Origin: an uncultured Flavobacteriaceae bacterium
GTDB lineage: Bacteria; Bacteroidota; Bacteroidia; Flavobacteriales; Flavobacteriaceae
NCBI GenBank assembly: GCA_947494825.1
Contig: CANLWN010000004.1
Location: 62,001 to 126,000, forward strand
Reading direction: 5' to 3'
DNA length: 64,000 bases
Shown: one piece after another, positions 3,780 through 52,955 of the stretch
How positions within the stretch are numbered: the first letter of the stretch is position 1
How the letters are laid out: each line of letters opens with the position of its first letter
Program-made: the position numbers and the translations under genes
Notes under the pieces: generated by a model
The model's database searches: none
What the model was told of the DNA's origin: nothing
What the model saw: the letters and a program-made list of their open reading frames with translations, nothing else

Positions 3780-5009
3780 TTAGGATTTGTACGTAATTTT
3801 TTCGTTCTTGAAGGTCAGGGCAAAGAAGAGCAGTACAAATAGGGCAAATCCGGCCGGATACATCCAAACAATGTTCCATTGGTGACCCGCCTCTTCCAGA
3901 ATGTATGCATTGGCAATCTTGCCTGCGATCCAAAAGCCGATCAACATGCCTACACCATAGGTGGCCAAGGTAATAAGGCCTTGGGCGGCACTTTTAATCT
4001 TTTCACCGGCCTTGCTGTCCGTATAGATTTGCCCAGAGACAAAGAAAAAATCATAGCAGATCCCGTGAAGGGCGATCCCCATTACAATCATAAAGAACAG
4101 CTCTCCTGCATTGCCATATGCAAAGAGCAAATACCTTAAAGTCCAGGCCAGCATCCCTGCCATTATCGTCTTTTTAAAGCCGTATTTCTTAAAGAAGAAC
4201 GGAAGCAATAGCATAAAGAGCACCTCCGAAATCTGTCCGACCGAGGCCCATGCCGTAGACCCTTCCACTTTGGATTCGGTTAGGAAGGGGCTTATATTCT
4301 GATAATAAAAGGCTAGGGGAATACAGATGAGTACCGAGGAGATAAAGAATATGAGAAAGTTTTTGTCCGTAAGCAATTTCAAAGCGTCCAGGCCCAGAAT
4401 ATCCGAGAGGGTCACTTTCTGGCCCTTGGCCACCTTGGGAGGTGTTTTTGGCAAGGTAAAACTGAACAGCCCCAAAATAGCCGAGGCCACAGCAGTCATC
4501 AAAAAGGTATTGGACAACAATCCGTTTTCTATGTTTTGCAACGCATCCCACTTAAAGGCCAAACTGATCAGAAGTCCGGCCACAATCCACCCCATAGTGC
4601 CAAATACCCTAACAAAGGGAAATTGCTTGGCAGGTTCCTTCATCTGGTTAAAGGCAACCGAATTTACCAGTGCCAAGGTGGGCATATAAGCAATCATATA
4701 CCCCAGTACATACGGGTAAAAAACGGAGAAATCCGTAGTCTGCGACATTTGGTACATCAGAAAAGCGCCAACAAGATGCAATAGTCCCAGAATCCGCTCT
4801 GCATTAAAAAAGCGGTCGGCTATCAGCCCAATAATGAAGGGGGCCACGATTGCCCCCCAGGACTGTGTGGAAAAGGCCTGTGCTATTTCCCCGTCATTGG
4901 CGCTGAGGTTGTTCCCCAGAAAAGTGCCCAAGGTAACGAACCATCCGCCCCAGATAAAGAATTCCAAAAACATCATTACGGAAAGTTGAACCTGTATCTT
5001 TAATTTCAT
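3780..5009 (-). CDS. Nucleoside:H+ symporter family (NupG-like) MFS permease
   Basis: A 409-residue protein with about 12 membrane segments. The N-terminus MKLKIQVQLSVMMFLEFFIW, followed by a GGWFVTLGTFL stretch, is characteristic of the Nuc_H_symport family. In Bacteroidota many members lie in sugar loci with Gfo/Idh/MocA enzymes and isomerases rather than in nucleoside loci, which fits here. It is 10 bases downstream of the dinB-like gene and in the same operon. It may carry a keto-sugar or glycoside rather than a nucleoside; that is inference from neighbours. Confidence 0.85.
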   Translation of the reverse strand: MKLKIQVQLSVMMFLEFFIWGGWFVTLGTFLGNNLSANDGEIAQAFSTQSWGAIVAPFIIGLIADRFFNAERILGLLHLVGAFLMYQMSQTTDFSVFYPYVLGYMIAYMPTLALVNSVAFNQMKEPAKQFPFVRVFGTMGWIVAGLLISLAFKWDALQNIENGLLSNTFLMTAVASAILGLFSFTLPKTPPKVAKGQKVTLSDILGLDALKLLTDKNFLIFFISSVLICIPLAFYYQNISPFLTESKVEGSTAWASVGQISEVLFMLLLPFFFKKYGFKKTIMAGMLAWTLRYLLFAYGNAGELFFMIVMGIALHGICYDFFFVSGQIYTDSKAGEKIKSAAQGLITLATYGVGMLIGFWIAGKIANAYILEEAGHQWNIVWMYPAGFALFVLLFFALTFKNEKITYKS

Positions 5010-5019
5010 CTGCCTTCCC

Positions 5020-5463
5020 TTATCGTTTGTAATGAATATAGTCCATCGGAATAGGTTCGATCCCGTTCATCCTGAAATCCTTGGAGATCTGAGCCCTGTG
5101 ATGGGTAGAATGATTGATGACATGAAACAGAATATCCCCAAGGGTGTTTGTAAACAACCGCCCCTCTGTAGTCTCATAGTCAATGCGCCTATCAAAATCA
5201 TCGGCATTCGTGGTAATCTCAAAAGAACTGCGCTGGTTCTCATAATGAATGTCGCCCCATTCTTTGACCTCGTGTATCTGCCATACCTCATAAAGCGATT
5301 TCTTCTCCAAAATTCTCGCATTCCAAAGATGATGGGCATTGAGTATGTGGCTAAAAAGTTTTACGCTTTCCTCCGGTACCTCCTTTAGCCCGGCGCATAA
5401 CTCAATAAGTTTTTTATTGCAGTAATAGTTATAATCAAACAACTGATTAAAAAAAACTTTCAT
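5020..5463 (-). CDS. DinB family putative metal-dependent protein
   Basis: A 147-residue four-helix-bundle protein. Potential metal ligands are the His pair in LNAHHLW and the C-terminal HVINHSTHHRAQI, the usual three-His arrangement of the DinB/YfiT family. Many members are thiol-dependent transferases or have no known role. It lies inside the sugar operon, 11 bases after the isomerase and 10 before the symporter, so it is cotranscribed with uptake and dehydrogenase genes. What a DinB protein does in a sugar locus is not evident. Confidence 0.82.
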   Translation of the reverse strand: MKVFFNQLFDYNYYCNKKLIELCAGLKEVPEESVKLFSHILNAHHLWNARILEKKSLYEVWQIHEVKEWGDIHYENQRSSFEITTNADDFDRRIDYETTEGRLFTNTLGDILFHVINHSTHHRAQISKDFRMNGIEPIPMDYIHYKR

Positions 5464-49462: not shown

Positions 49463-50719
49463 ATGCAACAATACCATATTTCCAAGCACAGTTCTTTTTA
49501 TACCATCGGTCTTAACTATAAGAAGGCCGATGCCGAGGTCCGTGGAAAGTTCAGTTTAAGCGAAGCGGCCATGCACACCTTGCTGACACAGGCTAAGAAC
49601 AACGATATTGATGGCTTGCTCATTACCTCCACCTGCAACCGTACGGAACTCCATGGCTTTGCCCAACACCCTTTTCAGTTGATCAAGCTGCTTTGCGATA
49701 ATACCCAAGGTTCTGTGGAAGAATTCCAGGAAGTTGCCTACGTCTACAAGAACAAGGAAGCCATAAACCACTTGTTTCGCGTGGGCACAGGTTTGGACAG
49801 CCAGATTTTGGGCGATTTCGAAATCGTGGGCCAACTAAAACAGAGCTTCTACCGCTCAAAAAAATACGGTTTGGCCAATCCGTTTCTGGAACGTTTGTGC
49901 AATGCGGTCCTCAGGGCCAGCAAACGAATAAAAACAGAAACCGAACTGTCATCCGGGGCCACTTCGGTAGCTTTCGCTTCAGTGCAGTACATCTTAAGGA
50001 ACGTTCCGGAAATATCCAGCAAGAACATTCTGCTCTTCGGAACCGGCAAAATTGGAAGGAACACTTGCGAGAACCTGATTAAGCATACCAAGAATTCGCA
50101 TATTACCCTAATCAACAGGACCAGGGACAAAGCAGAAAGAATCGCGGGGAAGTTCAATCTGATCGTAAAGGACTATGGAGACCTGCAGACAGAAATCAGG
50201 TCTGCCGATGTACTTATCGTAGCCACCAGCGCACAGTCGCCCACGATTTCCAAAGAGCTGATCTACACTAAAAAACCCTTGCTGATCTTGGACCTGTCCA
50301 TTCCCAAAAACGTTTCAGATCAGGTATCGGAATTGGAAAATGTTACCCTTATTCATTTGGACCATCTATCCCAAATGACCGATGAGACCCTGGAAAAACG
50401 AAAAAAACATATTCCGCAAGCGGAAGAAATCATAGACGAGATCAAGGACGATTTTATCAAATGGTTGGAGACCCGGAAATTTGCACCTGTGATAAAGGCC
50501 TTGAAGCAAAAGTTGAAGACCATGAAGGACGAGGAATTGGATTTTCAGTCCAAAAAACAATTGGGTTTCAATCAAGAACAGGCCGATATTATTTCTAACC
50601 GCATTATCCAAAAGATCACCACCCAGTTTGCCAACCACCTCAAAGAAACCGATGTTGATGCCGATAGCAGTTTGGCACTTATCCAAAGGGTCTTTCAACT
50701 AGAAGTCGATTCCAAATGA
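49463..50719 (+). CDS. hemA: Glutamyl-tRNA reductase
   Basis: 418 residues. The catalytic Cys58 is in ITSTCNRTELHG; GLDSQILGDFEIVGQLKQSF is the family signature; the NADPH domain has LLFGTGKIGRNTC; the helical dimerisation domain closes the protein. It makes glutamate-1-semialdehyde from charged tRNA-Glu, the first committed heme step. First gene of the operon, coupled to hemC by a four-base overlap. Confidence 0.97.
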   Translation: MQQYHISKHSSFYTIGLNYKKADAEVRGKFSLSEAAMHTLLTQAKNNDIDGLLITSTCNRTELHGFAQHPFQLIKLLCDNTQGSVEEFQEVAYVYKNKEAINHLFRVGTGLDSQILGDFEIVGQLKQSFYRSKKYGLANPFLERLCNAVLRASKRIKTETELSSGATSVAFASVQYILRNVPEISSKNILLFGTGKIGRNTCENLIKHTKNSHITLINRTRDKAERIAGKFNLIVKDYGDLQTEIRSADVLIVATSAQSPTISKELIYTKKPLLILDLSIPKNVSDQVSELENVTLIHLDHLSQMTDETLEKRKKHIPQAEEIIDEIKDDFIKWLETRKFAPVIKALKQKLKTMKDEELDFQSKKQLGFNQEQADIISNRIIQKITTQFANHLKETDVDADSSLALIQRVFQLEVDSK

Positions 50720-51633
50720 GCAAGCTGATCCGCATTGGCACCCGCGACAGTGAATTGGCACTGTGGCAGGCAAATACGGTTAAGGATATGCTGCAGTCCT
50801 TGGGCCATAGGGCCGTATTGGTCCCCGTAAAATCCGATGGGGATAAACTCCTGAACAAACCGCTCTACGAATTGGGCATCACCGGGATTTTTACCAAAAC
50901 CTTGGATGTAGCCATGCTTAACGGCAGCATTGATATTGCCGTACACTCCCTAAAGGACGTGCCTACGGCCCTACCCAAGGGAATTGTGCAGGCGGCGGTT
51001 CTGGAACGGGCCAAGGTGCAGGATATCCTGGTACACAAAGGCTTGGATTTTTTGGATGGAGAAGGCATCATCGCTACCGGAAGCCTTAGAAGGAAGGCAC
51101 AGTGGTTGAGCAAGTATCCCAGTCACCAGGTAGTAGACCTCAGGGGCAATGTCAATACACGCTTGCAAAAATTAAAGGATAACGAGGCTTGGAACGGGGC
51201 CGTTTTCGCCGTAGCCGGTTTGGAACGTATAGACCTTCTGCCAAAAAATGCCGCCACGCTGGATTGGATGATTCCCGCCCCCGCGCAAGGCGCTATGATG
51301 GTGGCCGCCATGGAAAATGATAGGCATTGTAGCGAGGTATTGTCCCAGATCAACCATCTGGACACGGAAATCTGCACCACCGTGGAGCGTGAATTTTTGA
51401 GAACCTTGGAAGGGGGCTGTACTGCACCCATAGGGGCATTGGCCCATATCCATGGTGGCACCCTGCACCTTAAAGGGGCTTTATTCAGCTTGGATGGCCG
51501 TAAAAAAATAGTCGTTGAAAAAAATACTGCGGTTGCCAACGCAAAGGACTTCGGAATAGTATGCGCTCAGGAGGTATTGCAGCAGGGCGGAAGCGAGCTC
51601 ATGCGGGAAATAAAAAATGAAATGAATGTATAA
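50716..51633 (+). CDS. hemC: Porphobilinogen deaminase (hydroxymethylbilane synthase)
   Basis: 305 residues. RIGTRDSELALWQAN, IDIAVHSLKDVPT and ATGSLRRKAQW carry the substrate-binding basic residues; the dipyrromethane cofactor is bound by Cys235 in LEGGCTAPIGA. It polymerises four porphobilinogens. The last ten codons and stop are repeated 148 bp downstream (51748 on), directly before the DUF559-hemD fusion. Confidence 0.97.
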   Translation: MSKLIRIGTRDSELALWQANTVKDMLQSLGHRAVLVPVKSDGDKLLNKPLYELGITGIFTKTLDVAMLNGSIDIAVHSLKDVPTALPKGIVQAAVLERAKVQDILVHKGLDFLDGEGIIATGSLRRKAQWLSKYPSHQVVDLRGNVNTRLQKLKDNEAWNGAVFAVAGLERIDLLPKNAATLDWMIPAPAQGAMMVAAMENDRHCSEVLSQINHLDTEICTTVEREFLRTLEGGCTAPIGALAHIHGGTLHLKGALFSLDGRKKIVVEKNTAVANAKDFGIVCAQEVLQQGGSELMREIKNEMNV

Positions 51634-51658
51634 CGGTTCCCGTTCCAAAGGGAGAGGG
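51600..51658 (+). repeat. hemC-tail repeat, copy 1 (original)
   Basis: 59 bp from the end of hemC through its stop and into CCAAAGGGAGAGGG. It matches copy 2 at 51748-51806 with 5 mismatches; the weaker match runs on past the ends for about 25 bp (GGGGATGTATGAAACAACAA versus GGGGATATGAACAACAA). Confidence 0.85.
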
Positions 51659-51747
51659 GATGTATGAAACAACAAGATTCTTCGCTTCCCGCTTGCCTGG
51701 GGCACGGCGCTCTGAATGACAAACAAGACATAGGGTTAGAACAAGCC
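51659..51747. repeat. Spacer resembling a dispersed intergenic repeat
   Basis: The segment CAAGATTCTTCGCTTCCCGC ... GCGCTCTGAATGACA has the look of palindromic-type intergenic repeats widely scattered in Bacteroidota genomes (often ending in GAATGACA). Assigned by general resemblance only. Confidence 0.45.
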
Positions 51748-51806
51748 CATGCAAGAAATAAAAAATGAAATGAATGTATAACGGTTCCTTCTCCAAAGGG
51801 AGAGGG
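51748..51806 (+). repeat. hemC-tail repeat, copy 2
   Basis: Encodes MQEIKNEMNV then stop, against MREIKNEMNV in the true hemC end. Its 3' part enters the left terminal repeat of the DUF559 module. Confidence 0.85.
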
Positions 51807-51819
51807 TCAGGGAGAGGGG
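51783..51819 (+). repeat. Left terminal repeat of the DUF559 module
   Basis: GC-rich repeat with a small palindrome TTCTCC-AAAG-GGAGAG and a second GGGAGAGGGG; it is also readable in frame ahead of ATG 51822. Confidence 0.6.
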
Positions 51820-51821
51820 AT

Positions 51822-52955
51822 ATGAACAACAAAATCCAAATAGCGCGTCAATTGCGGCAAGAACAAACCAAGGCAGAAAAAAAGCTATGGGATTATCTGC
51901 GTAATCGACAGTTTCACTACCTAAAATTTAGGAGACAGCACCCGCTAAAGGAATATATTCTGGACTTCTTCTGTGTAGATTATGGCATTGTCATTGAGTT
52001 GGATGGAGGATACCATCAGCAACCTCAGCAGCTAGAAAAAGATGAATTAAGGGATATACATCTAAGACAGTTAGGTTATTATGTGCTGCGTTTTGAAAAC
52101 AAATTGGTATTCAAACAACCAGAATTAATTTTTAAGGGTATTGAAGATGCGGTAAAAAAACAATCCGGTTTTTACACCGAGCGGAAGAATCAGTTGGAAA
52201 AAAGAAAAAAGCTTGGAAATAAACCCCTCACCTCGGTCCTCTCTCAGGGGAGAGGAAGCTATACTGTACTCACCACAAAAAAACTTACGCTTCCACAGCA
52301 GGAGTTACTGCTCAATGCGGGGGTTTCCTTTGTGGCCTATGATGCCATTGAAATCGAATATGTCGACTTTGATTTTAACCCACTGACGGAAAACGCCATT
52401 TTTACGAGCCAGAATGCGGTAAGGGCTTTCCTGAAAAAAACGGCGCATGCACAGGAAGGTCTCCCAAAGGTTTTGAACTGCTTTTGTGTCGGGGAAAAAA
52501 CGAAAACATTTTTGGAGGAAAATGGCCAAAAAGTAATAAAAACGGCGAAAAATGCCTTGGAATTGGCCCAAATGATCCTAAAAACGCACAAAACAGCCTC
52601 TTTTCTGTTTTTTTGCGGCAACAGAAAAAGGGCGGAACTTCCAAACATCCTGACCCAAAACGATATTGAATTCACCACCGTGGAAGTGTACAGGACCCAT
52701 TTACGACCCAAAAAAATGCAGGGAACCTATGACGGCATCCTGTTTTTTAGTCCAAGTGCCGTAGAAAGTTTTACCGCTGTGAACGGGCTTCAAAACGCAA
52801 TCGCCTTTTGCATTGGGGGTACAACGACCTCGGAAGCAAAAAAACATACGAAGAACATAGTCATTGCCAACAAACCCACCGTGGAAAATACGCTGGTGCA
52901 AGTGGTAAAATATTTTAACGCCTCGGCGATGGCCGGGACCAAAAAACAAGAATGA
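51822..52955 (+). CDS. hemD: Fusion: DUF559 endonuclease-like domain + uroporphyrinogen-III synthase (HemD)
   Basis: 377 residues from ATG 51822 (ATG 51774 is in frame but reads the left repeat). Residues 1-110 are DUF559: [20 protein letters not shown], then the Vsr/PD-(D/E)XK-type acids D48 (YILDFF), E59 and D61 (VIELDGG) and H65, all kept. A repeat-encoded linker (about 112-145) leads to HemD from Ser at 52257 ([21 protein letters not shown]). HemD closes hydroxymethylbilane to uroporphyrinogen III. The HemD part has no usable start codon near its N-terminus. It overlaps hemE by four bases. Confidence 0.85.
52224..52259 (+). repeat. Right terminal repeat of the DUF559 module
   Basis: CCCCTCACC ... 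CCTCTCTCAGGGGAGAGG, a 6-bp stem with a 6-base loop; reverse complement resembles the left end. It is translated as the linker between the nuclease and HemD. Confidence 0.6.

Follow-up and report, generated by a model that had tools for sequence, protein, structure and literature searches.

The closest described relatives of the motifs considered here are the BoxC/PIT/TM_ECO repeats, for which the part of Holder et al. (2015, PMC4666352) available to us gives the consensus CCCTCNCCCN3-6GGGNGAGGGN3GGGNGAGGG. The same text describes the formation of a triplex by TM_ECO in vitro and the instability of BoxC loci in E. coli and, as far as that part extends, reports no mobility gene near these repeats (PMC4666352). 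DUF559 proteins have been described separately. The accessible portion of one study assigns YcjD to the PD-(D/E)XK superfamily and notes that a YcjD profile detected Vsr (PMC1189080), while that of another shows that a damage response in Caulobacter requires a DUF559-containing Vsr-like protein (PMC12907096). Among the open-licence full texts, in the parts available, no paper was found that connects DUF559 or YcjD with palindromic repeats, BoxC included.

A duplicated hemC end in a Flavobacteriaceae genome pointed to a candidate companion of the BoxC/PIT repeats, namely a DUF559 nuclease gene. By itself, the duplication is a modest scar; the association to which it pointed is the finding. At this locus, hemD is joined to a probably mobile module.

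The duplicated hemC end and the module behind it

The locus lies in the window (the whole 64-kb stretch of DNA that was analysed) and comprises the following features.

50716..51633, + strand: hemC (porphobilinogen deaminase), an ORF with Pfam PF01379 and PF03900, whose last codons are the start of copy 1
51596..51658, + strand: direct copy 1, the hemC 3' end together with the opening section of a BoxC-like palindrome
51639..51658, + strand: BoxC-like remnant in copy 1, with hairpin arms retained with mismatches and the third purine strand absent (sequence, DNA fold)
51659..51675, + strand: GATGTATGAAACAACAA, which to judge from a local alignment is probably what remains of the DUF559 start
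51676..51721, + strand: spacer palindrome GATTCTTCGCT...TGAATGACA, a dispersed repeat whose pattern matches at 20 places of the genome, this one included
51744..51806, + strand: direct copy 2, the hemC 3' end (outside any hemC frame) together with the opening section of the left BoxC-type motif
51774..52955, + strand: fused ORF DUF559-HemD, 393 aa, or 377 aa if read from an inner ATG at 51822
51787..51819, + strand: left BoxC/PIT-type motif, a hairpin and third purine strand with 3 mismatches to the fixed BoxC positions
51822..52199, + strand: DUF559 domain (PF04480) of the Vsr-like nuclease family, Pfam E 3e-33; nearest solved sequence 3HRL, E 5e-18
52224..52255, - strand: right BoxC-like motif, inverted relative to the left one and degenerate (8 mismatches to BoxC), which forms the fusion linker by read-through
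52260..52955, + strand: HemD domain (uroporphyrinogen-III synthase), Pfam PF02602, E 1.5e-33, without an ATG of its own near the beginning

The duplication of the hemC end is real. Two 63-bp direct copies, 148 bp apart from start to start, differ at 6 of 63 positions; the preliminary description had the coordinates, the spacing and its own count of 5 differences in 59 bases right. It had also read correctly that copy 2 re-encodes the HemC C-terminus with one change and its stop (MQEIKNEMNV-stop, compared with MREIKNEMNV-stop), a peptide that sits behind in-frame stops in copy 2. Within the 64-kb window, no exact direct repeat at a distance of up to 500 bp is longer than the 34-nt core of this pair; the runner-up has 14 nt only. 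When the region was searched against the genome with a 241-bp query, the hemC-end copy was found at no further place; besides itself, the query matched three other places, all of them through the spacer repeat only. An artefact of assembly is scarcely credible here, as both copies are located inside one 596-kb contig, are not identical (6/63) and enclose an unrelated spacer.

Past copy 1, the order is a 17-bp DUF559-like stretch, the 46-bp palindromic repeat, 22 bp and copy 2. The 17 bp directly after copy 1 resemble the start of the DUF559 ORF, and the sequences downstream of both copies are alike (TATGAAACAACAA and TATGAACAACAA); additionally, 12 bp (TCAGGGAGAGGG) follow copy 2 and are absent after copy 1. 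The preliminary description had seen the DUF559 start after both copies, and this resemblance stands, with homology of the stretch after copy 1 being probable and not certain because 80 of 20,000 shuffles equal it. Likewise, its statement that the left end of the module appears twice was supported, one of the two being probably a remnant. A duplication that reaches further up into hemC was rejected, the 22 bp between the spacer repeat and copy 2 showing no likeness to hemC (19,378 of 20,000 shuffles were equally good).

In Pfam, the module ORF matched DUF559 (114.4 bits, compared with a curated cut-off of 20.6), HEM4 and, weakly, MTES_1575, and nothing else. To judge from their letters, the edges of the module resemble inverted motifs of the BoxC/PIT intrastrand-triplex type. 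In the left edge, CCTTCTCCAAAGGGAGAGGGTCAGGGAGAGGGG, a third purine strand comes after a hairpin; the computed DNA fold gave a hairpin with an unpaired third strand, at an energy not clearly better than that of shuffles (z -0.83), and for the right motif a fold that shuffles equalled. Searching the own genome for a 14-mer from the left motif with at most 2 mismatches was uninformative (56 matches vs 53 for the reversed control). The perfect BoxC consensus was found at the same hemC/hemD site in locus L155. A target-site duplication of the DUF559 module was considered and rejected, as TATA at both ends of the window module amounts to just 4 bp and an occupied and an empty genome of another genus (G166 and G351, below) show replacement. 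Separately, the own-genome DUF559 module L003 was seen to have the same 22 nt, ATAAATGAAAAAACTCCGGTAA, on either side.

The hemC/hemD junction in related genomes

A search with the DUF559-HemD protein found DUF559 directly before hemD in at least 10 of 397 genomes of the family, 9 of them fused, including the window, and 1 adjacent, a count that is taken from the matches listed and may miss unfused DUF559 neighbours of hemD. Thus, among the matches listed, 9 other Flavobacteriaceae genomes carry DUF559 at this junction, and 8 of these have it as an in-frame fusion to HemD. In L214, which is one of the fused cases, hemD yet retains its own ATG. No DUF559 match was present in 108 other hemC loci (105 distinct). 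The left junction repeats itself in 2 of the 10 modules at the hemD site: the window (52 nt, 94%) and L214 (63 nt, 90%), where the tandem repeat consists of palindrome and spacer without hemC coding DNA. The other 8 of 10 modules are without such a repeat, which counts against the explanation by BoxC and DUF559 given below.

An occupied and an empty site could be compared in another genus, where G166 has the module, G351 does not and the hemC ends of the two are nearly identical. Aligned by eye, the module replaces a short intergenic stretch of about 20 bp that includes the hemD start codon, and no target duplication was seen in this comparison.

These sites bear on the origin of the second copy, for which the preliminary description had offered either two events or repair copying. 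Repair copying is plausible. Two separate insertions, which would have left one full and one remnant module, are very improbable, even with the probable second DUF559 start after copy 1 in their favor. They are unsupported because insertion alone would not copy the hemC end again and because a self-comparison of left junctions found a second hemC end in none of the 9 other occupied sites among the matches listed; at G166/G351, moreover, the module took the place of its target without duplicating it. The duplication is most probably a lineage-specific copy of the left junction of the module and not the product of two insertions; the genus of the window genome is represented by this genome only.

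Other arrangements of the two genes were also observed. In Psychroflexus curvus (L084, about 4910-5400), a 492-bp gap between hemC and hemD holds palindromes of the same style and no DUF559 match, and is perhaps an emptied module. The two genes are about 2.44-2.56 kb apart in L076, L079, L080 and L097, and in L014, L020, L023 and other relatives HemC and HemD form one continuous frame of about 530 aa.

DUF559 loci in other genomes

Direct repeats (at least 60 bits within 700 bp) were detected at 30 of 49 free-standing DUF559 loci of Flavobacteriaceae vs 1 of 26 controls, at 10 of 30 Pseudomonadota loci vs 0 of 21 controls, and in 2 of 7 named records. Controls were places in 20 stretches per group from the same genomes, at least about 20 kb away from a DUF559 match, with intergenic centres where present. 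The Flavobacteriaceae set was reduced from 66 to 65 loci, L206 having no tblastn match; one of the two DUF559 genes of L184 was used, and the weak own-genome match L005 and some weaker matches were left out. The Pseudomonadota set of 30 loci is a part of all matches; its assignment to this phylum follows from its being drawn from the phylum of the Tateyamaria genome G420 (locus L142). In an earlier set of controls, 2 of 137 random places and 1 of 79 intergenic ones had repeats; L084 accounts for two of these three hits and the window itself for the third.

These counts are also the point at which an ordinary tandem duplication, unrelated to the module and arising by chance slippage with later decay, can be weighed. 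Short tandem duplications arise in many genomes, and the single event seen here cannot be tied to a cause; the difference between controls and DUF559 loci in both groups makes this account improbable. The repeats at L084, which has no DUF559 match, and at the control L308 do show that such repeats do not need DUF559 nearby. Among the 16 fused Flavobacteriaceae loci, only 2 had direct repeats and 14 were without a strong flanking repeat, which again goes against the BoxC/DUF559 explanation. At L161, the local copies of the repeated unit agree at 97-100% with one another and at 80-81% with two further sites of the same genome, and a dispersed repeat therefore seems to have been locally duplicated there.

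With a strict criterion (at most 5 mismatches within 250 bp), BoxC was found beside DUF559 loci outside Flavobacteriaceae on the left in 19 of 37, on the right in 24, on both sides in 15 and at one or both flanks in 28, and many of these motifs were free of mismatches; controls gave 0/324, 0/370 in shuffles and 4 of 74 distal windows. Against the BoxC/DUF559 explanation, strict BoxC is rare in Flavobacteriaceae (6 of 65 at either flank), where most of the palindromes are variants. Due to this misfit, a looser test for polypyrimidine/polypurine hairpins within 300 bp was used for comparison, which detected them at 36 of 49 free-standing and 11 of 16 fused Flavobacteriaceae loci (control 1/26), at 30 of 30 Pseudomonadota loci (control 1/21) and in 5 of 7 named records. 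Both the duplications and the BoxC or hairpin motifs are enriched beside DUF559.

The association was also visible between genomes. Of 200 genomes from the phylum of G420, 46 gave strong DUF559 hits (best E around 1e-14 or below); perfect BoxC was present in 24 of these vs 11 of the other 154 (Fisher p 1e-10, uncorrected for kinship), both searches being taken to cover the same genomes; in genomes of at least 4 Mb, the counts were 16 of 27 vs 6 of 51. The group without strong hits includes the 22 of 68 DUF559-matching genomes that had weak matches only. The reversed BoxC pattern matched once in all 200 genomes. One genome without a strong DUF559 hit holds 130 BoxC copies, and the 11 BoxC genomes of this kind either speak against a strict need for DUF559 or reflect relics or incomplete genomes.

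Fusion is not restricted to HemD: 16 of the 65 Flavobacteriaceae DUF559 loci are fused with or lie inside other genes (LeuS 6, HemD 4, MetH 2, RecG 2, HisD 1, pyridoxal-phosphate enzyme 1). Pfam confirmed the hosts LeuS (L145, L156), MetH (L158), RecG (L173), HisD (L147) and the pyridoxal-phosphate enzyme (L202); the remaining members were assigned via likeness of the flanking peptides, and the HemD ones via tblastn. In a 75-row tree of few columns and with bootstrap support that is unsettled, made without L191 and L204, the 10 DUF559 domains at the HemD site form one clade (100/100), as do the RecG pair and the MetH pair each, and the 6 LeuS copies do not resolve as one clade.

The individual fusions have some features that are recorded here in their own right. 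DUF559 lies in frame in LeuS, beside the editing domain, in L145, L146, L150, L153, L156 and L205 (the last looks decayed), in MetH in L158 and L163, and in RecG in L173 and L188. The copies in these three enzymes occur in several genera at similar positions, and the peptides that bound their DUF559 domains look palindrome-derived, e.g., PLSFGEGQGER.

In E. coli, the DUF559 gene ycjD is located between sapF and fabI and has matches in 3365 of 5426 complete genomes. In K-12, which carries both ycjD and BoxC, 39 nt of the ycjD 3' end are directly duplicated with a spacing of 106 and 90% identity. Inspected by eye, a BoxC-like palindrome follows each copy of the K-12 ycjD end, the second being degenerate, and a perfect BoxC comes next. 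This layout resembles that at hemC, with gene end, palindrome, gene end and palindrome beside a DUF559 gene. The stretch between the ycjD repeats has matches in 3309 of 5426 genomes, and in strain PSS-12 one repeat unit was lost and the repeat collapsed (E. coli loci L272 1478-1720 and L282 874-1018). E. coli strains without ycjD were considered as empty sites and set aside, since the one examined holds an RND efflux gene set there, described as eefRABCD in the available part of PMC12817139.

Proposed origin and comparison with known systems

We propose, with a probability of roughly 0.55, that the module and the copying of its junction are connected through a break or stall at BoxC, perhaps brought about by DUF559, and subsequent misaligned repair. 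A mobile module, consisting of the gene for DUF559 (a putative PD-(D/E)XK-type nuclease) between two inverted BoxC/PIT-type motifs, would have lodged between hemC and hemD with an in-frame fusion to HemD. Later, and in this lineage, the left junction (hemC end, BoxC and first DUF559 codons) would have been copied again in direct orientation. The most likely trigger would be a nick, a break or stalled replication at BoxC, possibly the work of the DUF559 protein, after which repair or re-replication started from a misplaced end. Copy 1 would then have decayed, its BoxC losing the third strand between GGGAGAGG repeats and its DUF559 part being truncated at the dispersed palindromic repeat, such that hemC now terminates in copy 1 and HemD would be read from the module behind copy 2. 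What the sequences show directly is the duplication, the fused frame and the left motif at this site, and the recurrence of DUF559 there in other genomes; mobility, the order of the events, nuclease action and the route of repair are inferred.

A different trigger would be the spacer palindrome itself. It lies between the two copies of the hemC end, and its entry or movement may have caused the duplication, as a long target duplication or through slippage, with BoxC and DUF559 as bystanders. The spacer pattern has 20 matches in the genome vs 0 for a reversed-pattern control, and of the 19 other sites 18 were examined, 4 of which (L325 twice, L328 and L334 once each) were in locally duplicated DNA, their left and right flanks sharing direct repeats that score 60 bits or more inside 300 bp; thus, BoxC need not be the trigger. 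However, copy 2 does not start at the spacer repeat, from which it is separated by the 22 bp mentioned above, the repeated units of L325 and L334 appear to contain the spacer element itself, and comparable duplications exist at E. coli ycjD and at L214, a comparison confined to the duplication itself. On this evidence, we regard the spacer palindrome as an unlikely cause, though one to be taken seriously. The spacer repeat thus represents a palindromic family besides BoxC, GATTCTTCGC...TGAATGACA (window 51676-51721, L324-L338), with some members in locally repeated DNA and members often close to an inverted-looking partner, GATTTGTCATTCCGAGCCTGCGAGGAATCT.

Returning to a break or stall at BoxC followed by misaligned repair, a broader proposal can be put forward tentatively, at somewhat less than even odds: DUF559 may be the missing companion of the BoxC/PIT repeats. 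The two would form a mobile class, built from a nuclease gene with a pair of inverted triplex motifs around it, that crosses phyla, moves via breakage provoked by the nuclease and repair, without a transposase, leaves duplicated flanks (hemC, ycjD), includes nuclease-free BoxC pairs as non-autonomous members and can lodge in frame (HemD, LeuS, MetH, RecG). If true, the modules in frame in these four proteins could not leave without harm, and there would be a reason for the presence of DUF559 domains within housekeeping enzymes of Flavobacteriaceae.

Compared with the BoxC/PIT/TM_ECO repeats, the edges of the window module show a similar hairpin with a third purine strand (degenerate in the right motif), the arrangement in inverted pairs and the local instability; triplex formation is published for TM_ECO, and the computation for the window motifs covered hairpin folds. 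No mobility gene near the BoxC/PIT repeats is reported in that paper (PMC4666352), whereas the window motifs flank a DUF559 nuclease gene. E. coli YcjD has in common with the window module the DUF559 family, an adjoining BoxC and a duplicated 3' end; its gene is free-standing and unfused, in contrast to the window DUF559, which is fused to HemD. REP/REPIN elements with their RAYT, as described in the available part of PMC3116915, are similar in having a companion gene and short palindromes that form inverted pairs, in being dispersed and in clustering locally. According to the same part of that source (PMC3116915), the companion of REP/REPIN is a tyrosine transposase, whereas here it is DUF559 and the palindromes are polypurine/polypyrimidine. 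No tyrosine (Y1) REP-associated transposase was found among the Pfam matches of the module ORF.

An insertion sequence with target-site duplication is bordered on either side by a short direct copy of its target, which the G166/G351 pair, with its replacement of about 20 bp, did not show. Vsr-like homing enzymes of the EDxHD type exist, and homing endonuclease genes share with the DUF559 modules site-bound lineages (HemD, RecG, MetH), a sporadic distribution and conserved host genes; as is expected of homing genes, DUF559 occupies the same site in different genomes, with one nuclease lineage each for the HemD, RecG and MetH sites. Inteins with a homing endonuclease contain a splicing domain, whereas DUF559 is retained in the host protein as an additional domain, and Pfam identified no intein splicing (Hint) domain in the window fused ORF or in 6 other fused proteins. 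Finally, Rickettsia palindromic elements are palindromic DNA that is translated in frame within host proteins, and they are not known to carry a nuclease gene. In the window module, the right motif is likewise translated in frame, but it belongs to a module in which a nuclease gene is present.
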